Of a stretch of 64,000 nucleotides of DNA, positions 49,486-64,000 are shown in pieces. Both the position numbers and the translations under genes were made by a program. The notes beneath the pieces were generated by a model. That model had not been told where the DNA came from and ran no database searches. It worked only from the letters and a program-made list of their open reading frames with translations. The stretch is from Candidatus Gastranaerophilales bacterium. Its GTDB lineage: Bacteria > Cyanobacteriota > Vampirovibrionia > Gastranaerophilales > Gastranaerophilaceae. Position 1 is the first letter of the stretch. Each line of letters opens with the position of its first letter. The DNA lies in NCBI GenBank assembly GCA_944323705.1, contig CALUTM010000005.1, forward strand, positions 1-64,000, in the 5' to 3' direction.

Positions 49486-49560
49486 TTGTAAAAACTAGGA
49501 TACAGACTATTAAAAGCACTAATGGGGTTTATTTAGGACTTTTAAATTGTAAAAATTAGG
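49486..49560. repeat. Two direct copies of TTGTAAAAA-YTAGG
   Basis: TTGTAAAAACTAGG at 49486-49499 and TTGTAAAAATTAGG at 49547-49560, 61 bp apart. They could be transposase-binding sites near the left end. Confidence 0.4.
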
Positions 49561-49951
49561 CTGTGTTACCTAACGTGTTTGAATATTAGCGATTGATTAG
49601 AGATTGACTGAAAATTCCAAAATTGTCCGAAATTACCGTTTTCTTTCCTCAAATTTCCGATACAAAAATTTAATCATCGCCAAAACTCAAACACTGTCTA
49701 TAATATAGCAACAACAGGTTTTGGACTCAAAAGTCCCTTTTAAATTACAACTTTTCAACTTGGAAGCAAGGCGGAAGTGTTTACTACATCTAAATAGCAG
49801 TAAATTTTGCACTAAAAACACATTAGAAAACAATTAAAAACATTCCCAAAATCTATCACTTTCAGTCAAGAATCATTAAATTTTCATTAATATTTAAAAA
49901 TAGTTTCGGTAATATGAGTATAATAATATTAATATTTGGTGGAGGATATTA

Positions 49952-51391
49952 GTGGAAAATTTAGTTATAAATAATAATGAAAACAATATTAATCTTATTA
50001 ACATTGAAGAAACCTTTAATATAATTAAAGAAACATTAGATAACGTCGGTTTGCCAAGTAGTAAAATTTTTGCAGAGCCTAAAGAAAGACTACGCGTTTT
50101 TAAAAATTTTGATGTTTTTTTAGAGAATATACCTAGTGACAAAATTGGTTCATCATTCTATATATCAAAATTCTTAGCTGCCGTCTTTGCTGGATTATTT
50201 GATGCGGCGCTAAATTATTTATGGGATGAAACAATAAAATCTCTTCGCAATAAAGTGGCGCAATATGATATTGCATATTTCTATGATGTTGTTCTTAGTG
50301 ATTCTAATAAACGCAAAGATTTTAAAGATATTTCTGATATTGAAAAATTAAGTGATGGAGATTTGTTATTGGGAGCTTTGAAAATAGACTTGATTGATGA
50401 AGTTTGTTATCAAGAGCTAAAGCATATTTCATATATGCGTAATTGGGCTAGTGCTGCACATCCAAACGAACAAGAATTGACAGGTGTCAAATTAGTTAAT
50501 TATTTGGAAATTTGTGTTAAAAGTATCATTGCTCTTCCAATAGATAGTACAGCTATTGAAATACAGACATTATTACGAAATATACGTCAAGATTACTCTT
50601 TAGATAGAGAAAGAATACAACACATTGCTTTATCATTTTCCAAATTTAAACCAAGCCAAATTAATGCTTTATGCCAAGGATTTTTTGGCATATATACAGA
50701 TATAAATACTTCACAAATCTCTAGAGATAATATTAATGAATTATTAGAATCTCTTTGGGAATTTACAACAGAAGAAACTAGAATAAAAATTGGAATGAAA
50801 TATGGTAATTTGTCAATTAATGGCGAAAATGAAAAATCCCAACTTGCAGATGCATTTTTAAGAAAAGTTGATGGTCTTAAATATATTCCAGATGATTTAA
50901 AATCTGCAAAGTTATTACCGTTATTAGAAGATTTAATTAATGCACATGAAAATGTTAATAACTTTTATACAGAACCATCAATAGCAAAGGAAATTATTAC
51001 ATTAATTAAATCTACAAAAATTCCTTCTGCTATAGCAACAGATTTTGTAATAAAAATTTTATATGTATATTTGACAAATGGTAATGGTGAAGCTTGGAAT
51101 GCAAATAGCTATTATGAGGAAATGCTCTCAAGTTTATCAGAATCGCAGGCAATTATCGGATTAACATTACTAGACAATAAAGATATAGCAAGAAAATTAT
51201 TGCGAGAAAATTGTGTTAGAAAATTTAAATACTTTCTTAACATTATTAGCCCTAAAATAACAAATCCAATAGGAAAAGACCTTATTGAAGCACTCAAAAA
51301 ATTTCCAAATAATCAATATTATAATATACTATTAGATAAAACAATAAAACTTAAATTAGAAAGTTTTAAACGAGCATATGCTACTGTATAA
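49952..51391 (+). CDS. HEPN-like protein of unknown function (mobile cargo)
   Basis: This 479-residue protein has a GTG start behind GGTGGAGG. Residues 55-190 look like a long helical domain that ends in RNWASAAHPNEQELTG near residue 160. The R-x6-H spacing is that of HEPN ribonuclease motifs, and the flanking helices fit. The C-terminal 280 residues are helical, with no known motif. HEPN proteins in mobile elements are often RNA-cleaving toxins or defence effectors. The assignment rests on one motif and context. Codon use is very AT-rich, as in other cargo genes. Confidence 0.7.
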   Translation: MENLVINNNENNINLINIEETFNIIKETLDNVGLPSSKIFAEPKERLRVFKNFDVFLENIPSDKIGSSFYISKFLAAVFAGLFDAALNYLWDETIKSLRNKVAQYDIAYFYDVVLSDSNKRKDFKDISDIEKLSDGDLLLGALKIDLIDEVCYQELKHISYMRNWASAAHPNEQELTGVKLVNYLEICVKSIIALPIDSTAIEIQTLLRNIRQDYSLDRERIQHIALSFSKFKPSQINALCQGFFGIYTDINTSQISRDNINELLESLWEFTTEETRIKIGMKYGNLSINGENEKSQLADAFLRKVDGLKYIPDDLKSAKLLPLLEDLINAHENVNNFYTEPSIAKEIITLIKSTKIPSAIATDFVIKILYVYLTNGNGEAWNANSYYEEMLSSLSESQAIIGLTLLDNKDIARKLLRENCVRKFKYFLNIISPKITNPIGKDLIEALKKFPNNQYYNILLDKTIKLKLESFKRAYATV

Positions 51392-51423: not shown

Positions 51424-52008
51424 TTACTTATTTTCAATAAAAGTAAGCAATAATGAATAACTACCACTATCTGCTTCACGTAACGCAGAAATGTATTCCT
51501 TTCTTAACTCAGAAATTTCTGTTAAATTACCAGAACCCCAATTTAAAGCCGGTAATCCAAAATGCTTCATTAATAAATCTGCCATCAATCGAGAAATTCT
51601 ACCATTGCCATTCGGGAAAGGATGAATTTGGACTAATCGGTGATGAAACCTTATTGCAATCTCCTTTGGAGAAAAAGTCTGATTATCAATCCAAAATTTA
51701 ACATCATCTAATAAAATTCTTAATTTTGGTTGTATTTCATATGGAGCAACACCAATATTCCTTTCACTTGTTCTAAAGGAACCTGCCCATTTCCATATAT
51801 TACCAAACATCTTTTTGTGCAAGTTTTTTATAAATGTTTCATTTAAAATATCTTTCTTATTTTTTAGAAGCCAAATTTCAGTATCAGCAATACCTTTTGT
51901 TTCTAGCTCATTAAGTTCAGCTCTGGTTGTAATCCACTTTGCTTTTAGTTGTTGCTTCTCTTCTTCAGTAAGAGGAGTTGAATTATCATCAGTTTCAAAA
52001 ATATTCAT
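51424..52008 (-). CDS. Fic-family protein (mobile mystery protein B type)
   Basis: This 194-residue protein carries the Fic catalytic loop HPFPNGNGR (near residues 129-137), so AMP or another nucleotide moiety transfer to a protein is likely. The segment FGNIWKWAGSFRTSERNIG upstream of the motif is typical of the branch known as mobile mystery protein B. An inhibitory (S/T)xxxE(G/N) helix is not obvious. It lies just downstream of an HTH partner of the A type, as is usual. The two probably act as a toxin/antitoxin-like or regulatory pair carried by mobile DNA. Confidence 0.88.
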   Translation of the reverse strand: MNIFETDDNSTPLTEEEKQQLKAKWITTRAELNELETKGIADTEIWLLKNKKDILNETFIKNLHKKMFGNIWKWAGSFRTSERNIGVAPYEIQPKLRILLDDVKFWIDNQTFSPKEIAIRFHHRLVQIHPFPNGNGRISRLMADLLMKHFGLPALNWGSGNLTEISELRKEYISALREADSGSYSLLLTFIENK

Positions 52009-52023
52009 AGTTAATTTACCCCC

Positions 52024-52470
52024 TTACTCATCTTCGTCCCAAATTCTTGCAATGTTACCATCTAACAATTCTTCAATTATATCTTTTAATAGGTCATCAG
52101 TTTTTACTAATTGATTTTCTAATTCCATATTTTTATTAACTTTGTCTAATATTTTTTGAGCTTTCTTTTTTGCTTGATTATAAATAATATCATCAATATG
52201 TTCTCTTGGAATAAATGCATAAGTAAAGTCGCAGTTTAACACGTCTGCGATTCTTTCCATAGTAGAAATTTTTACATTTCTCTCATTTTTTTCCATTGCA
52301 ACAATTCTTGGCTGGGAAATTTCAAGTCTTTTGGCTAATTGTGTTGTTGTCATACCAAGAAATTCACGAATAGTTTTTAACCAGCCTTGTTGAGGCCTAG
52401 AAATAATAGCTTTTTTTAAAGCTTCAAACTTCTTTTGATAAGAGCGTCTTAAGATTTTTTTATTATTCAT
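52024..52470 (-). CDS. HTH regulator (mobile mystery protein A type)
   Basis: This 148-residue protein has an XRE-type HTH at about residues 35-90 (IREFLGMTTTQLAKRLEISQ, then PRIVAMEKNERNVKISTMER). An N-terminal basic helix and an acidic C-terminal helix follow the pattern of mobile mystery protein A. It is upstream of the Fic gene by 15 bp and probably represses their shared promoter at 52503-52530. Pairing of A and B is well known in mobile regions, but their function is not. Confidence 0.85.
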   Translation of the reverse strand: MNNKKILRRSYQKKFEALKKAIISRPQQGWLKTIREFLGMTTTQLAKRLEISQPRIVAMEKNERNVKISTMERIADVLNCDFTYAFIPREHIDDIIYNQAKKKAQKILDKVNKNMELENQLVKTDDLLKDIIEELLDGNIARIWDEDE

Positions 52471-52590: not shown

Positions 52591-52628
52591 TACGGTAAAC
52601 TGATGCTAACAAGCATCAGTTTACCGTA
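52591..52628 (-). terminator. 17-bp perfect-stem terminator of the transposition operon
   Basis: TACGGTAAACTGATGCT pairs perfectly with its complement around a 4-nt loop. Read on the minus strand it is followed after 6 nt by six T residues. Confidence 0.8.
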
Positions 52629-52656: not shown

Positions 52657-53436
52657 TTATTTGTTACAAAACCTCAAATCGTCGAGCTTATAATCCTCTA
52701 ATCCCATTTCTTGTTTTATTTTATAAAAATCTTTTCTGATTTTGCGCTTAAGAGATTTTTTCTGCTGTTCATTGCCTGTTAAAATGGTGTTCAAAGGCTG
52801 TTTTAATGTAATCATTTTTTGAACAATTGGAACAAGATAAGGATACTTTCTTTTTGTTATCTTAAAAAGTAGCGCAAGTTGCTCAGGTGTTAAAACCGGC
52901 TTTTCTCTTTTGGGTATTTTTGCGATTCTTTTTACTTCAAAAATACAAGTTTTTTCAATATAACCTTCGTTTTGAAAATATTTTATTATCTGATTTAAGA
53001 GTGCCAAAATATTTTTAATTCTTGGCTCTGAAACTTTATTTTCTTGTAAATATCTTTTAAAACTTTGTGCGTCCTTAATCATTATATTTTTAAGTAAATC
53101 GACCTTAAAATATGGAATTATTTTTGAATAGATAAATGTTTTATATGCTTGAAAAGATTGCTCTGTAAGTGTTTGTTGTTTTAAATCTAAAAACATTTCA
53201 CAAGCTTGAACAACTGTGATATCAGAGTTTTTGCATTCAATATTTTTATCAACAATTTTGAATTTTTCTTCCGTTTTTACTAATTCTACGTATTCAAATT
53301 TATTTCCGCTAAGCTTTATATTTTCAGACTCTTGCAAAAATCCTCTAGCAACATCGGAATCAATTTCACAGAACATAGTAATATCTTCGAGAGTGAATGT
53401 TTTTAATCTTTTTGCGACTTTAAGAATTTTATCCAC
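52657..53436 (-). CDS. Tyrosine-recombinase-like protein without catalytic residues (third transposition gene)
   Basis: This 259-residue protein begins with a winged-helix-like segment (residues 1-55). A phage-integrase core-binding-like domain follows (about 80-170; MFLDLKQQTLTEQSFQAYKT). A reduced catalytic-domain remnant follows (VLTPEQLALLFKITKRKYPY), which then jumps to KLDDLRF and stops. The first catalytic Arg (GLR box), the HxxR box beyond LR, and the Tyr are all missing. It overlaps the MuB gene by 8 bp, so it is translated as the third gene of the transposase operon. It may be a DNA-binding accessory factor rather than a decayed integrase. Confidence 0.75.
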   Translation of the reverse strand: MDKILKVAKRLKTFTLEDITMFCEIDSDVARGFLQESENIKLSGNKFEYVELVKTEEKFKIVDKNIECKNSDITVVQACEMFLDLKQQTLTEQSFQAYKTFIYSKIIPYFKVDLLKNIMIKDAQSFKRYLQENKVSEPRIKNILALLNQIIKYFQNEGYIEKTCIFEVKRIAKIPKREKPVLTPEQLALLFKITKRKYPYLVPIVQKMITLKQPLNTILTGNEQQKKSLKRKIRKDFYKIKQEMGLEDYKLDDLRFCNK

Positions 53437-54118
53437 AAAGCACCTCCTTTGCTATATTTTCATCAATCTGAGTAAATCCATTTGCTTGTGCTACTTTTTC
53501 TAAAACATCGATACTATTCACGATTTGTCTGAAACTTTTTGTCTTGTTATGAATCAGATATATTACCTCTTTTGTAATTTCGACTTCTGAAATTTCTTCT
53601 ACGATTTGTTTAATATCCACGTATTCAAACTCAGTAAAATTATAGATTTCAGAGATTCTATCAAATAGATGTGTATGTTTTTTGAGTTTATGCTTTGCAA
53701 GTTGCATTCCAACCAAAACTATCGGCACGCCTGTTTCGTCGTGCAAATCTCTTAAAGTTTCAATCGTTCTGAAATCAGCAAGCAAGTAATCAATTTCATC
53801 AACGATAACCATCTGTGGATTTATTTTTAAAGCGTTAACGCATTGTCTAAAAATATCAGCAGTATAAAATCTTGGAATTTCATCAAGCTCTTTTGCAATT
53901 TCTTCCAACATCCACTTTGGACTCATAGAATTTGTCGCCCTAACATATATTATTGCATCATATTGAATCGATAGATAAAGCGCCGTTTTTGTTTTTCCGA
54001 GTCCAGCATTTCCATATACAAGACCAATCTTAGAAATATTATCAGGCTTGTTTTTTAAGTTATGTATTAAATTGATAAATCCTTTGACATTTTTCGTTTT
54101 AACAAATATCGGTTTCAT
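53429..54118 (-). CDS. MuB-type AAA+ transposition ATPase
   Basis: This 229-residue ATPase matches MuB, the target-DNA selector and transposase activator. Walker A is GLVYGNAGLGKTKTALYLS near residue 32, Walker B is MVIVDEIDYLLADF near residue 98, and a sensor-type LVGMQLA follows near 137. The C-terminal lid ends with FRQIVNSIDVLEKVA. It lacks the long N-terminal HTH region of Mu MuB. It overlaps MuA by 20 bp. Confidence 0.92.
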   Translation of the reverse strand: MKPIFVKTKNVKGFINLIHNLKNKPDNISKIGLVYGNAGLGKTKTALYLSIQYDAIIYVRATNSMSPKWMLEEIAKELDEIPRFYTADIFRQCVNALKINPQMVIVDEIDYLLADFRTIETLRDLHDETGVPIVLVGMQLAKHKLKKHTHLFDRISEIYNFTEFEYVDIKQIVEEISEVEITKEVIYLIHNKTKSFRQIVNSIDVLEKVAQANGFTQIDENIAKEVLCG

Positions 54119-56066
54119 ATTCTTCGAACTCCTTTGTTTCTTTGTAATTAGTTAGCCAAACCCTATCGTCATTACAAGTGCAACCATATTTCATTAAGTA
54201 TTCATATCGATCTCGACTTGTCTTGAATAATGGCTTGACAGCAGGATTATATTTTTCAGACTTTTCTTTTTTGACTTCTATTTTTGGGGGTAAATATATC
54301 TCTTCAGCCTCATCTATCTCACACTTCAAAATCTCTAAATCCTCAATATTCAAAAACTCCTTACAAGCTTTTATTGTCCTATTTTTAAGTTGTTTTTGTT
54401 TCTGAATCTTTTGCTTATAATCTTCAACATCCTTAATTTCGCCCGTATAATGTGCAAGAGGATGAGTGAGCGTTATTCTATCAGCTTTACATAAAAACTT
54501 GCCACTGGTTGTATAAACATTGATATAGTTTAAATCGAATAAACTATACTTTATTATCACCTTTTGTCTCAAGCCATAAAGTGTGTCGTTGTAATAATCA
54601 GCTTTCAAAAACCTTATTCCCTGACTTGTAATGGTTTTGATTTCTTGAGCCATCATCAAATCATCTAACTCTCTAGGGTTTATTTCTTGTCTCTCAATAC
54701 TATCTACCATTTCTTTAATACTTCTTGTTTTATCATTCGGACAAGGTAAAGAAATTTTATACTCAAGCCAACTGTTTATCATCTGAATTGTTTGTTGGAT
54801 AGTCGGAACAAATTCTTGATGGATTTCACTATGGAACTTTTCATTTCTTCTTAGTCTAGCAGGTTTATTTTCTATACTGGTTCCGATGTAGCTTGGTAGT
54901 AGCTTTTCAAAACTTTCCTGCATTTCTAAAAAGAATCGCTCAATAACTTTTGCTCTGGCATTATATGGATTAGCAAAAACTGTTGATATACCAAGTTTTT
55001 CATAAATTCCTTTTAATCCAACTTCATTGAAGTCAGTGCTACCCATAAAGTATTTACCCTTGAAAGCCTTGCCATTATCAAGATAAACAAACTTTGGGAT
55101 TTTGCCTAAATTCAAAATCGCATTTCTTAAAGCCGATGCTATATTTTGCGTATTTTCTTCAAGCATTATTTCGTAGCCAACCAATGCTGTTGATTTCCAA
55201 TCTAAAAAGCCAATCAATGTTGCTCTACAAGGTTTGCCTGTGAAAGGATTTATTACTTGGAAGTTTAATCGTTTTCCGTCAGCTACAAGAACTTCGCCGA
55301 CTTCAATCTTAGAAAGATCTCTTTTAATATGTGGGATAACCTCTTCTTTTAAAGTTTTTTCGCCATCACGCAAAAGTGTCCATTTATCAAAATAATTCGC
55401 CTTATACCAATTTGCAAACTTTCTAAACGTAGGCGGAGCAGGTATATATTCAGCCCCCTGAGTTTTAAGAACATATTGAGTTAAAGAAATGGCTTTCCCG
55501 ATGCTGAATTTATTCGGATGTAAAAGCAGTTTCAAAAATATTTGTTTTTCGTATTCCGTAAGGCAAGTTCTTGAATAATCTTCATAATGATAATTTGGAA
55601 TTAAAAGCTCGTAATTATTACTATTGCCTAAAACACGTTTCCATCTTTGAAGCGTACCAATTGATACTTTACCAAGTTTTGCATAAATTTCAGGATACAA
55701 AACTTGCGCATTGTATGCGCTCAAAAAATCAGTATCAAATTGTGTTTTATTTTGTTGATTTTTACGCTGATTTTTCCAAAGATTTAATAAATCCAATCTT
55801 GCAAGCGCAATTGTTTTAGCCTTATCTGGCTTATGAAAATCGAGTGGTGCAGGAAGCTGTTTTTCAGTACAACTTGGGACAAATTTTGAATAATATTTTT
55901 CCTGCAATTCTGGCTCAATACTTGATAAGAAAATCTCAAAACTCCTTCCACCCTTTACTGTTATTTCACGAGTTTGGTATTTACCCCTTGAAAGCCTAAT
56001 AGCACGAGTACTAACACCTTTGAGTTCTGCTAATTCTTTGATTGTAATGTATTTTTCTTCGTTCAT
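54099..56066 (-). CDS. MuA-type DDE transposase
   Basis: This 655-residue transposase starts with an HTH (TIKELAELKGVSTRAIRLSR) like the Mu/Tn end-binding domains, then a helical linker. The RNase H-fold core has the catalytic residues: Asp in EVLVADGKRLNFQ (near 264), Asp in FVYLDNGKAFKG (near 325) and Glu in KVIERFFLEMQ (near 371). A beta-barrel domain and a charged tail follow, including a Cys-containing YGCTCNDD segment. It cuts and joins transposon ends with MuB. Transcription runs away from the divergent small HTH gene, as in Mu-type repressor/transposase switches. Confidence 0.94.
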   Translation of the reverse strand: MNEEKYITIKELAELKGVSTRAIRLSRGKYQTREITVKGGRSFEIFLSSIEPELQEKYYSKFVPSCTEKQLPAPLDFHKPDKAKTIALARLDLLNLWKNQRKNQQNKTQFDTDFLSAYNAQVLYPEIYAKLGKVSIGTLQRWKRVLGNSNNYELLIPNYHYEDYSRTCLTEYEKQIFLKLLLHPNKFSIGKAISLTQYVLKTQGAEYIPAPPTFRKFANWYKANYFDKWTLLRDGEKTLKEEVIPHIKRDLSKIEVGEVLVADGKRLNFQVINPFTGKPCRATLIGFLDWKSTALVGYEIMLEENTQNIASALRNAILNLGKIPKFVYLDNGKAFKGKYFMGSTDFNEVGLKGIYEKLGISTVFANPYNARAKVIERFFLEMQESFEKLLPSYIGTSIENKPARLRRNEKFHSEIHQEFVPTIQQTIQMINSWLEYKISLPCPNDKTRSIKEMVDSIERQEINPRELDDLMMAQEIKTITSQGIRFLKADYYNDTLYGLRQKVIIKYSLFDLNYINVYTTSGKFLCKADRITLTHPLAHYTGEIKDVEDYKQKIQKQKQLKNRTIKACKEFLNIEDLEILKCEIDEAEEIYLPPKIEVKKEKSEKYNPAVKPLFKTSRDRYEYLMKYGCTCNDDRVWLTNYKETKEFEEYETDIC

Positions 56067-56205
56067 AACACTAACATCTATTACTCTGAAGTTGGAAGAA
56101 TGGAAGTATTTCCGACTTAATTCGTATCATTCAGACACACTTGCTTTCCATAGAAAGAGAGTTAAAATGTGTGTGACAAAATATTTATCCCCAAGGAGTA
56201 AGTTA
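56067..56205. promoter_or_regulatory. Divergent control region of transposase and repressor
   Basis: For the plus-strand HTH gene, TTGCTT (56141-56146), a 16-bp spacer and TAAAAT (56163-56168) form a plausible promoter. It is flanked by GACACAC (56134-56140) and TGTGTGTG (56168-56175), an imperfect inverted pair that may be the repressor operator. Confidence 0.5.
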
Positions 56206-56481
56206 ATGAAGAAAGAATTAAAGAAACAAATCCAACAACTTGAACAAAAGATGGCAAAGAGTCCGAATAATATGAATAACGGTGGTAGTCATTTTCTATA
56301 TCATCGTGAGCAGATGATAAGATTTAAACTTATGCAAGCTGGTATCAGCCAGAAAAAACTTGCAAAACATTTAAACCTAACTGAAAGCTATATCTCAAAA
56401 CTCATAACAGGCGAACGCTATAACCAAGATTTCGAAATTTTCTTAAGAAAATTTCTACAGTTTGATTATTGTTTTATTTAA
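56206..56481 (+). CDS. Small HTH protein, probable transposition repressor
   Basis: This 91-residue protein has a basic coiled N-terminus (LKKQIQQLEQKMAK), then a Cro/C1-like HTH at about residues 42-80 (GISQKKLAKHLNLTESYISK). It is divergent from the MuA transposase, the place of the repressor in Mu-like elements. I chose the ATG behind AAGGAG; a longer frame upstream overlaps the start of the transposase gene and its control region. Confidence 0.82.
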   Translation: MKKELKKQIQQLEQKMAKSPNNMNNGGSHFLYHREQMIRFKLMQAGISQKKLAKHLNLTESYISKLITGERYNQDFEIFLRKFLQFDYCFI

Positions 56482-56568: not shown

Positions 56569-57420
56569 ATGACAAGTTCAAATTTAATATTAAATAGAGT
56601 TTTCTCTAAAAATACTTTAAAAGCGTTACTTGATGGTGATAAAAATGCGGGTAATGCATATTATGCTGTAATCAAAAGATATTTAATATCATCGTTAAAT
56701 AAAAAAAATAAAGATTTAATTAGTGAAATCTACAAAACATTAAAACATACTTATCGTAACGAATATTATTATAAAAATACCTTACTAAATAATTTGTTAT
56801 TTAAATTTCACAATCCATTAAAAACTACTGCTTTGACAGAGATTCCCGTTTCTAAATCTATTGCAGACTTTATTTTGTTAAACGGAAAAGCTACTGTCTA
56901 TGAAATTAAAACTGAATTAGATACTTTTGATAGATTGAATTCTCAATTAATTAATTACTATAAAGCATTTGATAATGTATGTGTTGTTGTCCCTGAAATA
57001 AAACTAGAGACAATTAAAAATAAATTAAAGAATCATAATGTTGGAATATATTACATATCAAAACGTGGTGCATTAAAAAAATATAGAGAACCTATTTCAT
57101 ATATTGCTGAATTAGATTATGATACAATCTTTAAAATTTTACGGAAATATGAATATGAAAATATTATCTCAAAATATTATGTACTACCAGATGTTTCACA
57201 ATTTAAATACTATCAAGCTTGTAAAGAACTCTTTAAAACAATTCCATTAGATAAGGTGTATAGTGATTTTAAAGTGCAATTAAAACAACGAACTAAAATA
57301 AATTTAGAATTAATACAAAATGTTCCGAAAGAAATAAAAAGTGTAGTATATTTTTCTAAATTAAAAGAAACTGAGTATAAAACCCTAGAGACCTTTTTAG
57401 AAAGAAAGTTTGGAGGTTAA
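56569..57420 (+). CDS. sce7726 family protein (PD-(D/E)xK nuclease-like)
   Basis: This 283-residue protein resembles the sce7726 family. A segment IADFILLNGKATVYEIKTE (near residues 96-114) has the D...ExK spacing of PD-(D/E)xK nucleases, and the helical N-terminal 60 residues fit the family. The rest is helical with TELDTFDRLNSQLINYYKAF, a typical follow-on to the nuclease core. The next gene belongs to sce7725, its usual partner. The role is probably nucleic-acid cleavage in a defence or toxin module; experimental function is not known to me. The first codon has no ribosome-binding site. Confidence 0.82.
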   Translation: MTSSNLILNRVFSKNTLKALLDGDKNAGNAYYAVIKRYLISSLNKKNKDLISEIYKTLKHTYRNEYYYKNTLLNNLLFKFHNPLKTTALTEIPVSKSIADFILLNGKATVYEIKTELDTFDRLNSQLINYYKAFDNVCVVVPEIKLETIKNKLKNHNVGIYYISKRGALKKYREPISYIAELDYDTIFKILRKYEYENIISKYYVLPDVSQFKYYQACKELFKTIPLDKVYSDFKVQLKQRTKINLELIQNVPKEIKSVVYFSKLKETEYKTLETFLERKFGG

Positions 57421-57424
57421 ATAT

Positions 57425-58339
57425 ATGTACTTCCCATATTTAAGAGGACGCCAATTTGAACTAATAGCATTAAGAGAATTAATTGAAAATAATCTAATTG
57501 GAAATCATATATATCCTGTTATTGAACCTGTTAAATTATCTAGTACTTTGACAAAAACTTTAAATGTTTTCAAAGAAAATAATAGAAATTTAGCTATTAT
57601 CATGAACCCATGCGTTGGGAATCTTGATTTCAAAAAACTTAATGATTCAGAAGATAAAGTTTGTAAAACAATGAATGAAATCATTAATATTTCTAATATA
57701 AAAAAAGGCTTTCACCTTAGTAAATTTATTCCAGAATATACTGATAATATTCAAAACATTGTCTTAATTGTTAAAAATCGTGACACTATAAAATCATATA
57801 ATGAAATCTATTCAAGAGAGATCGAACCTGAGTTTACATTAATGCTAGATGAAGCTAGAAGAATTATTCGAAATAGACATCGAGTTCTTTTAAATGATAA
57901 TTTCAATAAACAAGAAAAAAATGCAAACTATGAAAACACTGATGAGTTTTATACAAATGATCATTTATACTATAAAGATGATGGTTACGTTGGTTTTTCA
58001 GATTTTTCTATTGTTGGTGATGAATATTCAGAGTCAGGTTTTGCACCATATGCAGTAGCGATACATATTGTTTATTTTGATGAAAATAACGATTTAAGAG
58101 TGAGACATTTTGTATCAGATACCAATGATGATTATACAGATACAACTGGAAAATTCTATGAAGCATTAGAAAAATTAATTGCTTGGAATCAAGAAATGAA
58201 ATTAGATACATATGCTATGAGAACATTTCAAAAGCTATATGACGAGGAATCATATCCAGGTTTAGGAACTGTAAAAAAACTCTCTATTATGCATCATATA
58301 GAGCTTGTAAGCAAATTTCTTGATGAACAGGATCACTAG
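57425..58339 (+). CDS. sce7725 family protein (beta-family-like)
   Basis: The N-terminus MYFPYLRGRQFELIALREL and the VIEPVKLSSTL segment identify the sce7725 family, related in pattern to phage beta-family proteins. The protein is about 304 residues, probably a barrel-like fold with an aspartate- and tyrosine-rich middle (DGYVGFSDFSIVGDEYSESG). No catalytic motif can be assigned. I chose the ATG after GGAGG, 4 bp past the sce7726 stop. The family is found mainly beside sce7726, so the two are likely to act together. Confidence 0.83.
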   Translation: MYFPYLRGRQFELIALRELIENNLIGNHIYPVIEPVKLSSTLTKTLNVFKENNRNLAIIMNPCVGNLDFKKLNDSEDKVCKTMNEIINISNIKKGFHLSKFIPEYTDNIQNIVLIVKNRDTIKSYNEIYSREIEPEFTLMLDEARRIIRNRHRVLLNDNFNKQEKNANYENTDEFYTNDHLYYKDDGYVGFSDFSIVGDEYSESGFAPYAVAIHIVYFDENNDLRVRHFVSDTNDDYTDTTGKFYEALEKLIAWNQEMKLDTYAMRTFQKLYDEESYPGLGTVKKLSIMHHIELVSKFLDEQDH

Positions 58340-58342
58340 TAT

Positions 58343-59455
58343 ATGAAATTTTGTAGTAATTGTTTTAACGATACTGAGATTAAAAATATTATAAATAGTA
58401 TAAATAATACGGATGTTTGTGACATTCATAATGTTAAATCTGAACATATATATGATACTGATAAACATGACAATTTAGTTCCTTATTTTGAAGCATTAGT
58501 TGATGTATATACTGTAGCGTCAGAATCTCAGATTGAAATTGATAAAGCAAAATACGTCCGTTTGAAATATGATTTACTTTATAATTGGAAGATTTTTAAT
58601 GATGTTTGTAAACCTGAAAATGTCCATAACATTGTAAAAAGTATATGCAAGGAAAAATATGAAGAAAGTCCAAGTCTCTTTGATAATGATATTGTTATTG
58701 AGGAGTTATTTGACTTGGAATATAAAAAAGAATATTCTTTACTTAAAACTTATTCTTGGGATGATTTTAAAACTAGCTTGATAAAGAATAACAGATACCA
58801 TACAAATATATTTAATAAAAAATTATTTGAACAATATTGTTGGGCAGCCCCTAAATTTTATTCTGCTGGTACAAAATTTTATCGTGGCAGAATTTCTGAC
58901 AAGAATGGATATTCTTTAGAGGATATGGGGTGTCCTCCTTTAAAAAATTCTAAAGCAGGAAGAGTAAATGCAGAGGGAGTTGAGTGTCTTTATCTTGCAA
59001 ATAACATTGAAACAACAATAAATGAAGTTAGAGCAGGTGTGGCTGACTATATCACAATTGCGACCTTTGAACTTCAGAAAGATATTATTATTGCGGATTT
59101 GAAAAATATAAATAAAATTAGTCCTTTTTCAATTCCTGATTCTAATTTTCTAGTTAATTATGCTATAAATAAGGAGCATCTTTCTAAAATTAATGAAGAA
59201 ATGTCAAAGGTCGTTCGTTTAAGCGATACAAAATTAGATTATATTCCAACTCAATACATATGTGATTTTATTAAAACTCTTGAGAGAGAGGGCTCTACAA
59301 ACGAAGTAGTAAGATTTGCTGGAGTAGAATATGATAGTACTTTAAGTTCGAATGGTTATAATATTGCCATATTTGACCCAACTTTATTTAAAGCTACAAA
59401 TATTGAGATACGCCAAATTAATTCTTTAAAATACGAATCAACAAAAATTATGTAA
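58343..59455 (+). CDS. RES-domain protein with HEPN/RES-type N-terminal region
   Basis: This 370-residue protein has a C-terminal RES domain (about residues 165-345): FYRGRISDKNG near residue 180, a GRVNAEGVECLYLANNIET segment near 208 and EVRAG near residue 231. RES proteins are NAD+-degrading phosphorylases and are often toxins. The N-terminal 40 residues have CSNC and CDIH pairs (a possible zinc knuckle), and a helical region follows, as in HEPN/RES N-terminal domains. It starts 3 bp after sce7725, so it is co-translated. No small antitoxin gene follows, so sce7726/sce7725 might control it or trigger it. Confidence 0.85.
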   Translation: MKFCSNCFNDTEIKNIINSINNTDVCDIHNVKSEHIYDTDKHDNLVPYFEALVDVYTVASESQIEIDKAKYVRLKYDLLYNWKIFNDVCKPENVHNIVKSICKEKYEESPSLFDNDIVIEELFDLEYKKEYSLLKTYSWDDFKTSLIKNNRYHTNIFNKKLFEQYCWAAPKFYSAGTKFYRGRISDKNGYSLEDMGCPPLKNSKAGRVNAEGVECLYLANNIETTINEVRAGVADYITIATFELQKDIIIADLKNINKISPFSIPDSNFLVNYAINKEHLSKINEEMSKVVRLSDTKLDYIPTQYICDFIKTLEREGSTNEVVRFAGVEYDSTLSSNGYNIAIFDPTLFKATNIEIRQINSLKYESTKIM

Positions 59456-59500: not shown

Positions 59501-59517
59501 CACAAAACGTTACATAA
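59501..59517. repeat. Candidate right terminal repeat of the mobile element
   Basis: CACAAAACGTTACATAA; its reverse complement resembles 49378-49393. It partly overlaps the recombination-site region that follows. Confidence 0.35.
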
Positions 59518-59518
59518 T

Positions 59519-59546
59519 TGGTAACACTTTGCTAATTTTGTTACAT
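59519..59546. other. Left putative recombination site (11-6-11)
   Basis: Reading the minus strand: arm ATGTAACAAAA, centre TTAGCA, arm AAGTGTTACCA. The first arm and centre (17 bp) are identical to the site at 60241-60268 in the opposite orientation. An extra half-site GTTACAT lies at 59509-59515. Confidence 0.6.
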
Positions 59547-59606
59547 AGTAAGACACGTTTCGTGGCTTCAGAGGTAATATGAACAACAGTAAAGGAGTAT
59601 ATTGAT

Positions 59607-60152
59607 ATGACAGCAGTAGAGCCAATTAGAGATAAAAGTTTAATAGATATGGTTAAACGAATTTTAAAAAGACAAGGTTCAAGAAATCATTTATTATTTA
59701 TTATGGGAATAAATATCGGATTAAGGATTTCGGACACTTTAAAATTAAAAGTCAAAGATGTCAGAAACAAGGATTATATCGAACTTTACGAACAAAAAAC
59801 AAAGAAATTTAAACGATTTCCTATCGTTGATGCATATAAGCCAGATTTGGAAGATTTTATTATTGGAAAAGATGATGAAGAGTGGCTCTTTGCAAGTCGT
59901 AGAGGTGGTAAACCAATAACAAGAATACAAGCATATAGAATATTACAAGAAGCCTGCTTTGAGGCTGGAATAACAGCAAGAATTGGTACGCATACATTAA
60001 GAAAGACTTTCGGCTATCATTTTTATCAGGAGCATAAAGATATTGGCTTGCTACAATACCTTTTTAACCATTCTTCTCAACGGGTAACCCTTTTATACAT
60101 AGGTATTACACAGGAACTTATTGATAGTAAACTCTGTAGTTTCGCTTTATAA
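59607..60152 (+). CDS. Short tyrosine recombinase (FimB/FimE-sized)
   Basis: This 181-residue integrase-fold protein consists almost only of the catalytic domain, like FimB/FimE-type invertases. All active-site residues are visible: Arg in GINIGLRISD (near 38), Lys in YEQKTKK (near 60), HTLRKTFGYHF (His and Arg near 131), the NHSSQRVT histidine (near 152) and the nucleophile in TLLYIG (near 160). The ATG follows AAAGGAG. Sites with 17 identical bases lie on both sides in inverted orientation, so it may flip its own segment. Otherwise it could integrate or excise the nearby element. Confidence 0.9.
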   Translation: MTAVEPIRDKSLIDMVKRILKRQGSRNHLLFIMGINIGLRISDTLKLKVKDVRNKDYIELYEQKTKKFKRFPIVDAYKPDLEDFIIGKDDEEWLFASRRGGKPITRIQAYRILQEACFEAGITARIGTHTLRKTFGYHFYQEHKDIGLLQYLFNHSSQRVTLLYIGITQELIDSKLCSFAL

Positions 60153-60184
60153 ATTGTAACAATTTTATCACAATTGTAACAATT
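60152..60184. repeat. Two direct copies of AATTGTAACAATT
   Basis: Perfect 13-mers at 60152-60164 and 60172-60184, 20 bp apart (about two helical turns), starting at the stop codon of the recombinase. They overlap a possible -35 (TTGTAA) of a rightward promoter with TAAAGT about 18 bp later. Confidence 0.7.
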
Positions 60185-60240
60185 TCAACCAAAACGCTAA
60201 AGTTTTTTAGTAATTATGCCGATATAACTACTAAGGTTAT

Positions 60241-60268
60241 ATGTAACAAAATTAGCATTTTGTTACAT
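60241..60268. other. Right putative recombination site (perfect 11-6-11 dyad)
   Basis: Arm ATGTAACAAAA, centre TTAGCA, arm TTTTGTTACAT: perfectly symmetric 11-bp arms around a 6-bp centre, the geometry of Xer/dif-type core sites. It lies 42 bp upstream of the giant ORF. Confidence 0.65.
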
Positions 60269-60310
60269 TCAAGCCCAAAAGGAAGCTCTTGTTTAGAAAA
60301 AGGTAAAGTG

Positions 60311-63300
60311 ATGGCAGGCGAAGATTTTTTCAAATTTAATAAAGGCAATGAGTTTAGGTTTTCAAACTTTAGAGAAATAAAGGAAGAAGACCTAAAAGGT
60401 GCTGATGAAAAAACAAAAAAACTCTTTAATATTTTTGCAGGCGAAGATAAAATCTTGCAAGAAGTTGAAGCAAAGAGCTTGTTTAATGTTTTAAAAACTG
60501 CTGCCGGCGATAATCAAGTATTAGAAGACAACGAAATTAAAGCATTCGCAAAAGAACATATCGGCGAAGAAGTTGATACAAATGCTTTAATGACTTTTGT
60601 TAATAACATTTTTGGAACTAAGGAAAAACCACAAACCCAAGCTGTGCAAGTCGCAAAGGGTTATACTGCACAAAAACAACAAACATTCTTAGAAGAAGCA
60701 GCTTGTAAAGAAATTGTTATTGATATTATTGATGAAAATCTTTCAGAAGCTTATGAAATATTGAATAGTCAGTATTTAGGTTCAATTTCAGGTTGGCACG
60801 ATGAAAAAAAAGACAAAAATGATATTTTAAAAACATCTAATGTATCAAAAGTTTTGGATTATCAAAACGCTGGTATTGAATGGATGAACAAAGCAAAAAT
60901 AGCTCCTCCAAACGGACTTACTAAAAAAGAATACTATGAAGGCAATAAACAAAGAATCAAAGATATGATTCTTACTCGTGTTTTAGTGCTAGATACTAAT
61001 ACCAAATTCAAAGAATTAAAGAACAAATATTCTGAAGAAAAACTTGCTCAAATTATTGGGGATTATGTTGAACAATTATGCTCAAATGCATCAATGGAAG
61101 ATTTAAAAGATATTCAGAAACAATTTGTTTCATATAGTGGTGTAGAGGAAATTCAAGCATTAGAAAATGTTGTAGATAATGCTATCAAATTTAATGCTGA
61201 TAAAAACAAGCCTATGCCTTATAGCGAAGTTCCTTTACCAAAATTTGACAACTCAAAAGGTATAGTTCCTGAATATTGGAATTCTGATGAGCCAATATCT
61301 TTTGAAGAAGTTTACAAAATCGAAAGAGGAACTGAATATTCACAATACAAAATTGAACAATATGCACTAGCTAAAAAAGAAATGGAAGTAGTTGCTAATG
61401 CATATAACAAAAAGCAACAATTTATCGAATTTGCAGAAGGTTTAAGAAAAGATGAAACTTTAAACATAGATGAAAAGACACAAAAAGTTTTAGAAGGCTT
61501 TGCAACATTCTATGCGTTAGCTGAAGATGGTGGTTTAAGTCAGTTAAAAGAGTTAATCGCTGAATCTAAATTACCTATTAGCATTGATGAAAACGGATTT
61601 AATTTTGGTACGTTAGATGATAATGCTAAAAATAGAGCATTAAATTCATTATTAAAACTAGCTCAACAATCAAAAGAAAAAGAATTTGAAGAATTTTTAA
61701 ATGGTAAAACAATTGAAGATTATCAAATAGCTTTAGTACAAGCTCACGATGAAGCTATCGGGGATGAAAATGGGAAAATGATGGCTGAAGCTATGAAGAA
61801 TGATAACCTAACTTGTATTCAAAGATGGACAGGCAATACATCAATGGCAGGTATGGGTATGACAATTGTTGGTGGTATTCTTTGCTTTACTCCACTAGCA
61901 CCATTAGGGGCAGGAATGATTACAGTTGGTAATACTCTTGCAATTGGTGGTATGGTTGCAAAAACAGGCTTAGGTGTTACTGATTACGCAACTAAAGATG
62001 TTCAAACTGCTGAAGAAGCTGAGCAATTAACTAAAGACTTTATTATGGATGCAGGTGGTTTTATCATAGGTATGGGAGCAGGCAAAGCTGGCTTGAAAGC
62101 ATTTAGTAAACTTATTGATAAAAAGCTTGTTGCTGTTTTCGGACAACAAATTGCATCAGGTAATAAAATGCAAGCATTAAAGACTGTGTTTACGAATCCT
62201 GAATATTTAAAGAATTTTATGACGGCAGCAGGAGCAAAATTAAGTGCTGACTTTGTAATCTCTTATGCAGGGGATTTGGCAATGATGGGTATTTTAGATA
62301 CACAAGACGATTGGCAATCTCTATTAAAAGCTAACTTAACAGGTATTTTGGTCGGTATGTCCGGCGATATTAAAGATGTTTCTGGTGTTGGCAGACCTCG
62401 TAACTTTGGAGTTTCTGATGGTGTAAAACCTATGACAGAGATGGATTATGGACAAAGACTGTTGGGTAATGATGTAACTGTGGCTGATCCCAAAACAGGA
62501 GCAACTGTTGAAGGAACTGTAACAGGATTGCATAATACAAACGGACAAGTTGAAATTGAAGTCAATGGACAAAGATATTCTACTAATGATGTCGCAGAAG
62601 TTAAAGGGGAAGCTGTTGTAGAAACTTCTTTATCACAAAAAATATCTAATGATAATCAAAGAATTACAGAATCAAAATTTGAAAGTAGTTTGAAAGGAAG
62701 GTTTAGTGATGAATTCGTGGAAAACTACCTTAAAGAAATAACTAACTATGTAAATCTTGAACAAGGAGATAAAAATTTTTACAAAATTGTTGGCGAGTTG
62801 GGTACTCCAGAAATAATAGAAAATTGGCTTAAAAATTCATTAGAAGGAAAAACACTAACTCAGAAAATTAATTTCTTTAATGAAATTATGGCATTTCCTG
62901 AACTTTTTAAACTTCAAAAAATGATAAAAGAAAATTCTATTGATGCTAAATTTGATAGAGTAACTGGAGAATCTATTCCAGCAATTCCACAATTCGTTAG
63001 AAAAATTATTATAGATAGTGGATTTTTAGCAAGCGATGTTAATACTAATTTTTCTAAAGATAAAACTAATATCAGAGCCTTAATTAGTGATTGTTTAGAA
63101 CATCCTAATGAATATAAATTATATCAAATGATTTTAGACAATCCTATTAATGCTAAATCTGATAGAATAACAGGCGAACCGATTCCTGATATGCCAGTTC
63201 AAGTAAGAGAAGCTATTAAAAATGGAGAGGTAGCCCCTACAGATACAAGCTTAGGTATGATTGATGTTAGAGAATTTATTACTGATTATTTAAACAATGA

Positions 63301-64000
63301 AAACTTATATAAAATAAGGGCACTAATATTAGATAATAAAATTGATGCCATTGATCCAAATACAGGAAAACCTATTTATCCAATCTCAGATGAAGTTAGG
63401 AATATTGTACAATCTCAAGGTATTGGTACTAGATTCGCAAATCCTAAAAAAGAATGGTATGGTATTGATGTAAATAATTTAATTAAAAATTGTCTTAAAA
63501 ATCCTGAAAAATATGAATTGTATGAATTAATTAAAAATAATGATATAAATTCAACACATGATAAAGCAACAGGGGTTGAATTACCTGATATTCCTGAATA
63601 TTTGCGTTTGCAAATAAAATCTAGTAATGTTTTAGATTTATATAACAATAAATTAGATTTAGATTATTACGTAAAACCATTTAAAGAATCTAAAAATCAT
63701 TTTTATGGAATGAAAAAAATTGAATTGCAAAAATACTTAGAAAATATAACAGATGAAGCTGGTAATAAAATTACTGATTTAAGTAGATTAAAACCAGATG
63801 AAATTGTTAATCAACTTGAAAGTTTGATTGGACATGAAAATAGAAATTTAATCCTTGATGTAATTCAAAAGAATATTTTAACAGACAAAACAAACCTAGA
63901 TTACAACAAAACAATAAGTGAGTTTATTAATGAAACAATAAATGCTAAACCAGAAGAAATCAGGTTGTTAGCAAGATTAGTGAGATCAGATAAATGGGAA
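60311..64000 (+). CDS. Giant repeat protein, 3' end beyond the window
   Basis: The ORF is open from the ATG behind AAAAAGG to the window edge, 1230 residues. There is no signal peptide. The N-terminal 100 residues contain two EF-hand-like stretches (AGEDKILQEVEAKSLFNVLK and AAGDNQVLEDNEIKAFAK). A glycine-rich hydrophobic region (about 515-560, MTIVGGILCFTPLAPLGAGM) could span a membrane. A small beta-rich domain (about 718-762; DVTVADPKTGATVEGTVTG) looks SH3/KOW-like. From about residue 850, four ~67-residue repeats follow. The missing C-terminus could hold an effector domain. I do not recognise the family. A possible invertible segment ends 42 bp upstream. Confidence 0.85.
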   Translation, partial: MAGEDFFKFNKGNEFRFSNFREIKEEDLKGADEKTKKLFNIFAGEDKILQEVEAKSLFNVLKTAAGDNQVLEDNEIKAFAKEHIGEEVDTNALMTFVNNIFGTKEKPQTQAVQVAKGYTAQKQQTFLEEAACKEIVIDIIDENLSEAYEILNSQYLGSISGWHDEKKDKNDILKTSNVSKVLDYQNAGIEWMNKAKIAPPNGLTKKEYYEGNKQRIKDMILTRVLVLDTNTKFKELKNKYSEEKLAQIIGDYVEQLCSNASMEDLKDIQKQFVSYSGVEEIQALENVVDNAIKFNADKNKPMPYSEVPLPKFDNSKGIVPEYWNSDEPISFEEVYKIERGTEYSQYKIEQYALAKKEMEVVANAYNKKQQFIEFAEGLRKDETLNIDEKTQKVLEGFATFYALAEDGGLSQLKELIAESKLPISIDENGFNFGTLDDNAKNRALNSLLKLAQQSKEKEFEEFLNGKTIEDYQIALVQAHDEAIGDENGKMMAEAMKNDNLTCIQRWTGNTSMAGMGMTIVGGILCFTPLAPLGAGMITVGNTLAIGGMVAKTGLGVTDYATKDVQTAEEAEQLTKDFIMDAGGFIIGMGAGKAGLKAFSKLIDKKLVAVFGQQIASGNKMQALKTVFTNPEYLKNFMTAAGAKLSADFVISYAGDLAMMGILDTQDDWQSLLKANLTGILVGMSGDIKDVSGVGRPRNFGVSDGVKPMTEMDYGQRLLGNDVTVADPKTGATVEGTVTGLHNTNGQVEIEVNGQRYSTNDVAEVKGEAVVETSLSQKISNDNQRITESKFESSLKGRFSDEFVENYLKEITNYVNLEQGDKNFYKIVGELGTPEIIENWLKNSLEGKTLTQKINFFNEIMAFPELFKLQKMIKENSIDAKFDRVTGESIPAIPQFVRKIIIDSGFLASDVNTNFSKDKTNIRALISDCLEHPNEYKLYQMILDNPINAKSDRITGEPIPDMPVQVREAIKNGEVAPTDTSLGMIDVREFITDYLNNENLYKIRALILDNKIDAIDPNTGKPIYPISDEVRNIVQSQGIGTRFANPKKEWYGIDVNNLIKNCLKNPEKYELYELIKNNDINSTHDKATGVELPDIPEYLRLQIKSSNVLDLYNNKLDLDYYVKPFKESKNHFYGMKKIELQKYLENITDEAGNKITDLSRLKPDEIVNQLESLIGHENRNLILDVIQKNILTDKTNLDYNKTISEFINETINAKPEEIRLLARLVRSDKWE
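62860..63640 (+). repeat. Four ~67-residue tandem protein repeats
   Basis: The unit has the form LxxMIxxNxIxA, then DxxTGExIPxxPxxVR. The D-x2-TG step recurs at 62954, 63161, 63353 and 63560, with periods of 69, 64 and 69 codons. The DNA copies have diverged, so the duplication is old. Confidence 0.85.

Follow-up and report, generated by a model that had tools for sequence, protein, structure and literature searches.

The window analysed in this study comprises 64,000 nucleotides, i.e., positions 1 to 64,000 of contig CALUTM010000005.1 from a Candidatus Gastranaerophilales bacterium. It harbors a transposon of about 17.4 kb which spans contig positions 49523-66884; the right end lies past the window. 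The features of the element inside the window are as follows.

49518..49522, no strand: ACTAA, left copy of a 5-bp target duplication, read by eye
49523..49872, plus strand: left end TGGGGTTTATTT... with a conserved non-coding arm of about 350 bp, common to the copies
49952..51391, plus strand: cargo, 479-aa protein without a Pfam match
51424..52008, minus strand: cargo, Fic domain protein
52024..52470, minus strand: cargo, HTH_3 protein adjoining Fic
52657..53436, minus strand: third gene, 259 aa, GTG start, proposed target selector (ORF, Pfam, PHROGs, AlphaFold2, alignment)
52660..52920, minus strand: remnant of a tyrosine-recombinase catalytic domain, residues 173-259, without GLR box, stopping after LDDLRF (alignment; dN/dS 0.150)
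52921..53217, minus strand: core-binding (SAM-like) module, residues 74-172, proposed tRNA-end reader (Pfam, AlphaFold2, profile search; covariation in the short class)
53287..53436, minus strand: winged-helix module, residues 1-50, proposed MuA/MuB adaptor (AlphaFold2 model; persists where the other domain is replaced)
53429..54118, minus strand: MuB/TnsC-like AAA+ ATPase (phrog_296, E 3e-43; AAA_22, TniB; PDB profile matches VchTnsC, MuB, ShTnsC)
54099..56066, minus strand: MuA-like DDE transposase (phrog_310, E 1e-91; Mu-transpos_C)
56020..56481, plus strand: divergent Cro/C1-type repressor ORF, true start probably internal, kept beside muA in the 259-aa class
56569..57420, plus strand: cargo, sce7726 family protein
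57410..58339, plus strand: cargo, sce7725 family protein
58343..59455, plus strand: cargo, RES-domain protein
59607..60152, plus strand: cargo, 181-aa tyrosine recombinase consisting of a catalytic domain only (PF00589, E 1e-22)
60312..64000, plus strand: cargo, long ORF running past the window end within the element (right end at contig 66884)

A first-pass annotation had described the 259-aa ORF as the third gene of a muA-muB operon. The coordinates agree: its ORF overlaps that of the MuB/TniB-like ATPase (53429-54118) by 8 bp, and the ORFs of the ATPase and the MuA-like transposase overlap by 20 bp. Judged by their sequence families, a MuA-family DDE transposase and a MuB-family ATPase constitute a Mu-like transposition module. 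In tblastn searches the best match of the window transposase in phage records was 149 bits, to Mu-like phages; in a plasmid collection 105 bits was best among the matches listed. The MuB profile was about equally close to TnsC structures and to MuB in the PDB profile search. Should the module prove to be Tn7-like, the novelty of the findings below would shrink. Phage Mu with MuA-MuB and its relatives BalMu-1 and phiRTG5 use the same families of transposase and AAA+ target-capture ATPase. Phage Mu is the textbook case of near-random insertion, and no dedicated site-specific selector for Mu was found in the open-access literature covered. The gene after B in phage Mu is annotated as kil, whereas in the Gastranaerophilales elements the proposed selector occupies this place. 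A long inverted repeat, tacggtaaactgatgct...agcatcagtttaccgta, was noted by eye 3' of the third gene (window 52591-52628); probably, it is the operon terminator.

Mu has TG...CA ends and produces a 5-bp target duplication. The window element has TG...CA ends and an ACTAA duplication (by eye); its right copy falls beyond the window, at contig 66885-66889 (L082 8886-8890). Inspection by eye of six other elements with both ends mapped found no 5-bp duplication, i.e., the window element is the one case in seven. In the copies the right end reads TGTTTTGTATCAGGGATTTTGA...; this conserved end is at contig 66884 in the window element, and a candidate right end at 59502 (CCCCA motif) was rejected. Several copies are arranged in tandem, one being inserted beside the end of another. 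No clean empty site was found 3' of the tolC-like gene. Among the cargo, the 181-aa recombinase, whose motifs look intact on inspection, is flanked by inverted copies of GCTAATTTTGTTACATA at about 59531-59547 and 60240-60256 (by eye). This recombinase block (window 59503-60282) directly precedes the very long ORF, resembles an invertible switch and recurs in L040.

The third protein belongs to the integrase core-binding (SAM-like) domain family. Its sole Pfam match above cut-off is Phage_int_SAM_3 (PF14659) at residues 74-121 (E 9.3e-6, 26.2 bits, cut-off 22.6), and the PHROGs integrase profile covers residues 60-194 (E 2.2e-14). Neither scan, Pfam or PHROGs, returned a match to a catalytic domain. 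An AlphaFold2 model built on a 31-sequence alignment (mean pLDDT 87, pTM 0.47) predicts a winged helix at residues 2-49 (H-H-H-E-E), a four-helix core-binding bundle at residues 75-156 and a helical remnant at residues 184-256. A PDB profile search with the family retrieved integrase core-binding domains, the best being 2kkp (E 6e-12). With Foldseek the lambda and Tn1549 integrases came up near the top, weakly (best E 1.8e-3); the fold match of the model to 2kd1 (TMt 0.67) was weaker than the profile matches. Thus, AlphaFold2, Pfam and the PDB profile search agree with the winged-helix-like start and the integrase core-binding domain which had been read from the letters alone. The core-binding fold is common to the third protein and to lambda Int and Tn1549 Int and likely reflects descent, yet the third proteins lack the catalytic residues or the entire catalytic domain.

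The sample comprised 147 unique related elements from gut bacteria of the order Candidatus Gastranaerophilales. In the loci examined a gene starting with a winged HTH follows muB. An ORF of at least 100 aa is present after muB in 140 of the 147 elements; in four of the seven without one (L108, L162, L193, L203) less than 200 bp of DNA remained after muB. Across the order these proteins have the N-terminal winged helix in common, and what follows it varies. Full-length integrase-like (about 363 aa), extended (534-572 aa) and 259-aa forms exist; short forms of about 184 aa and about 169 aa both end after the core-binding domain, and a further form of 212-218 aa has an unrelated C-terminal domain. 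Cyanobacterial plasmid relatives of MuB have a different third gene with no integrase domain and no tRNA nearby; therefore, not even all relatives possess an integrase reader. An HTH-like fourth gene of about 135-148 aa comes after third genes of 169-186 aa, e.g., at L033 7533-7937 and in other short-class loci. It has weak DUF1804/Mu Gp27/terminase matches and was not seen in the 259-aa class.

The nearest full-length relative of the window protein is L243 (357 aa). Set against L243, the window protein is missing the central part of the catalytic domain, i.e., the stretch with the TGxR box, and ends LDDLRF-CNK. This confirms the missing GLR box and the stop after LDDLRF noted initially. An active tyrosine recombinase possesses an R-K-H-R-H/W-Y active site in a full catalytic domain. 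The window protein, having neither GLR box nor second H/W nor Tyr, is no such enzyme. The first-pass annotation had named full-length integrases at this position as the observation that would speak against its reading. Such relatives do occupy the same position, and because of this the window form historically is a truncation. The relatives themselves, however, are catalytically degenerate. Thirteen full-length relatives were aligned with two integrases of the same order that served as intact controls. Of the 13, 12 have lost the first Arg, all the His of HxxR and 10 the second His/Trp, and all retain the Tyr.

The truncated gene is not decaying. It is single-copy in its own genome, and genomes of the same genus carry homologues of nearly equal length with 66-76% identity. 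The same 259-aa form, with the frame ending at the same place, is found in 25 homologues; because it recurs in this way the form is not due to chance. In these 25 members, excluding pairs with saturated or low dS, the median dN/dS (NG86) is 0.165, and 0.150 for the catalytic-domain remnant, i.e., selection is not relaxed. An internal TGA interrupts the frame of one copy (G020, C4; L028/L079). The conserved form and a dN/dS of 0.15-0.17 show that the gene is maintained, as had been surmised from its intact frame and the overlap with muB, and decay was rejected on these grounds.

Proximity was counted where the upstream DNA sufficed (126 of the 147 elements for 600 bp, 116 for 2 kb), orthologous insertions included. 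In 44 of 126 elements a tRNA or tmRNA gene on the same strand, its 3' end toward the element, is located no more than 600 bp upstream of muA, and in 61 of 116 no more than 2 kb. The opposite orientation occurs once in 126 at 600 bp and once in the 2-kb set. Random 600-bp windows of the same loci contained a tRNA in 40 of 4801 cases (0.8%). Within 600 bp 21 kinds of tRNA/tmRNA are used. In the short class a same-strand tRNA is present within 3 kb in 64 of 79 elements and absent within this distance in 15; in the class of 421-700 aa the 3 kb upstream contain no tRNA in any of five elements. For short-class elements the distance from the tRNA 3' end to the mapped element end has a median of 65 bp (range 25-203, n=30), the mapped end often being past a terminator-like hairpin (by eye). 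A motif search did not locate the outer end of this class on the side of the third gene. Twice, two muA-side ends lie about 42-44 bp apart beside one tRNA (L145 7865 and 7907; L253 3411 and 3367); these are repeated insertions at one landing site.

In the 259-aa class cargo separates the muA-side end from muA, and for this reason the ends were mapped. In the right flank of the window element a 3' fragment of a tRNA, best matching tRNA-Met(CAT) in 32 of 35 aligned positions, is 30 bp away with its CCA end toward the element. Of 14 right ends of this class three tandem ones were set aside. In the 160-bp flanks of the other 11, a T-arm-like hairpin of at least four pairs is present in 10 (background 5.9%) and one with five pairs in seven (background 1.2%). 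In right-end contexts fetched afterwards, five of seven have an intact facing tRNA (Ala, Ala, Ala, Met, Val) at 50-247 bp; the two without a tRNA (L112, L258/L113) may adjoin another element. A sequence of about 100 bp (...cagagttaaattgtgtatgacaattaaatatcaggtcaggagttcgagtct...) which ends in a T-arm-like hairpin recurs in the right-end flanks of L089, L095, L104 and L111. ARAGORN calls no tRNA in it; possibly, these are decayed tRNA copies serving as landing pads.

Two other explanations were considered. According to the first, the third protein is a recombinase for cointegrate resolution or circularisation, or one half of a split recombinase with the catalytic half provided by, e.g., the 181-aa protein. 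The window invites this idea with a core-binding domain in the third gene and a recombinase made of a catalytic domain only as cargo at 59607-60152; further, a relative of the 181-aa protein lies beside the repressor in L058, L246 and L247. Yet 181-aa homologues turned up in only two of the loci searched (L040, L058), therefore most elements of the window class lack one, and L058, L246 and L247 combine the relative with a third gene devoid of a core-binding domain. Moreover, the full-length third proteins have lost the His of HxxR and nearly all of them the first Arg. Integrases integrate site-specifically inside tRNA genes; the variable distance of 25-203 bp past the tRNA is unlike that. An active or split recombinase was rejected on account of the lost active site and the variable distance, and we consider it highly unlikely.

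The second explanation takes the third protein for a decaying passenger, and the tRNA proximity for the trace of old integrase-made islands in which the transposon is held. Indeed, the third protein derives from a longer integrase-like form, and tRNA genes are known integration hot spots (PMC11406308, available text). Against this stand the dN/dS values and the open frame kept in 25 homologues, the fixed orientation of the tRNA (44 to 1), the short distance from tRNA to element end and the covariation of reader and tRNA described next. The probability of this explanation appears to be minute.

Does the third protein choose the end or the target? Covariation was examined in 63 of the 147 elements, namely those with a complete third protein 150-200 aa long and a tRNA on the same strand no more than 3 kb away; collapse of near-duplicates left 51. 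In these 51 short-class elements the linker and core-binding region is 65% identical in pairs at the same tRNA and 35% in pairs at different tRNAs (p 0.0002, 5000 permutations). The respective values are 80 and 77% for the winged helix (p 0.03) and 83.6 and 82.4% for MuB (p 0.17). The nearest neighbour by core-binding region indicates the right tRNA in 20 of 51 elements (42 could match; 3.4 expected). The covariation is imperfect. L130 at tRNA-Arg(CCG) and L136 at tmRNA have third proteins with 98% identity, and those of L123 and L120, at Thr and Leu tRNAs, are 88% identical.

Mantel tests were carried out with 28 short-class elements with a mapped end motif. Similarity in the core-binding region plus C-terminus is correlated with similarity in the tRNA 3' sequence (r 0.43, p 0.0002); no such correlation exists for MuB (r -0.04, p 0.69) or for the transposon end (r -0.01). 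The end sequence is correlated with MuB (r 0.49, p 0.005) and weakly with the core-binding region (r 0.18, p 0.005). Therefore, the reader domain moves with the target and the transposition machine with the ends. The first-pass annotation had proposed a DNA-binding accessory for end or target choice. This is supported, and the comparison of r 0.43 for the tRNA with 0.18 for the end favours target over end choice.

These data also address the possibility that the third protein binds to the ends of its transposon or controls the operon, the tRNA proximity being due to MuA/MuB or host factors. The winged helix and the core-binding fold are generic DNA binders, and the weak correlation of the core-binding region with the ends is in line with such a role. 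However, the ends track MuB more than the third protein, and the tRNA is tracked by the core-binding region and neither by MuB nor by the ends. Further, different tRNAs adjoin elements with near-identical MuB proteins. End binding as the main function was rejected on the Mantel correlations; the explanation as a whole is unlikely.

A natural domain swap extends the argument for target selection. In L058, L246/L260 and L247/L261, which belong to three genera (G009, G303, G091), the winged helix is kept and an unrelated domain replaces the core-binding domain. All three adjoin tRNA-Asn(GTT), with its 3' end toward the end on the third-gene side, the reverse of the other classes. This is consistent with a third protein which sets both target and orientation. 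Taken together, covariation and the swap (3/3) suggest that the identity of the selector determines the target. Part of the core common to the three swap elements is a 179-aa relative of the 181-aa recombinase (L058 3080-3619, L246 2074-2613, L247 2115-2654), possibly a cointegrate resolvase.

We have considerable confidence that the third gene encodes a target selector in which the winged HTH would join MuA/MuB and the core-binding domain of a dead integrase would read the 3' end of a tRNA or tmRNA. At the level of sequence, operon position, loss of catalytic residues, purifying selection, oriented tRNA proximity and covariation of reader and tRNA are demonstrated. We infer that the third protein binds DNA, recognizes the T-arm and contacts MuB, and that its removal would randomise or abolish insertion. 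The constant N-terminal winged helix would join MuB and/or MuA, while the core-binding domain, taken from a tyrosine integrase with a lost active site, would read the tRNA/tmRNA 3' end, probably at the T-arm. MuB would be loaded next to the reader-bound tRNA end. MuA would then insert the element mostly 25-130 bp past the tRNA 3' end in one orientation, leaving the tRNA undamaged. Different versions of the core-binding domain would direct related transposons to different tRNAs.

In a wider sense, we lean towards the view that Mu-family transposons of Gastranaerophilales possess a modular address system, i.e., a constant winged-helix adaptor and an exchangeable reader, recruited from dead tyrosine recombinases or other DNA-binding proteins. 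A swap of the reader would retarget the element among tRNA/tmRNA 3' ends and could invert its orientation. The catalytic domain would have eroded to varying extents (full length but dead, 259, about 184 and about 169 aa) as the enzyme became an address label.

There is a precedent in the Tn7-like element Tn6022. According to the accessible text of the report (Faure et al., 2023, PMC10293859), its target is selected by an inactivated tyrosine recombinase, TnsF; transposition into comM requires this protein, which also interacts with TniQ. Both TnsF and the window protein present an inactivated tyrosine-recombinase fold, a core-binding plus a partial catalytic domain, alongside a DDE transposase and an AAA+ ATPase. 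As far as that text goes, TnsF has N-terminal zinc fingers and two core-binding domains, whereas the window protein has a winged helix and one core-binding domain; TnsF acts through TniQ and targets comM, whereas the Gastranaerophilales elements rely on MuA/MuB and adjoin tRNA/tmRNA 3' ends. Those proteins of the element that were scanned, all encoded inside the window, gave no TniQ match. Tn7-like elements repeatedly use tRNA genes via TnsD/TniQ or guide RNAs, and the MuA/MuB branch is set apart from them (PMC11406308, in the portion at hand). The TnsD/TniQ and guide-RNA elements (types I-B2, I-D, V-K; same portion of PMC11406308) likewise insert displaced from the tRNA gene and have a dedicated selector. 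They differ in combining TniQ-fold proteins or guide RNAs with TnsB/TnsC, in place of an integrase-derived reader with a Mu-like machine.

The first-pass annotation had held that such an accessory would be new for Mu-like elements. Within the open-access literature covered, mostly titles and starts of abstracts, no Mu-type element was found that targets tRNAs or has a selector derived from an integrase, and to this extent the statement holds; the principle, however, is known from TnsF (PMC10293859, accessible text). If the proposal is correct, an integrase has, after TnsF, once more been turned into a target selector, here with many degrees of erosion within one bacterial order, and a Mu-like machine possesses a protein of its own, exchangeable between elements, for reading tRNA ends. 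It would become possible to test how site-selective transposition originated. A small protein-guided targeting module (169-259 aa) without CRISPR would be at hand, and the stacking of cargo-carrying elements beside tRNA genes would be explained. A possibly parallel case is the Mu-like Fusobacterium phage phiRTG5 (L265 748-1527), in which an annotated 259-aa SAM-domain integrase is positioned upstream of the transposase; the match of this integrase to the catalytic domain does not reach the Pfam cut-off.
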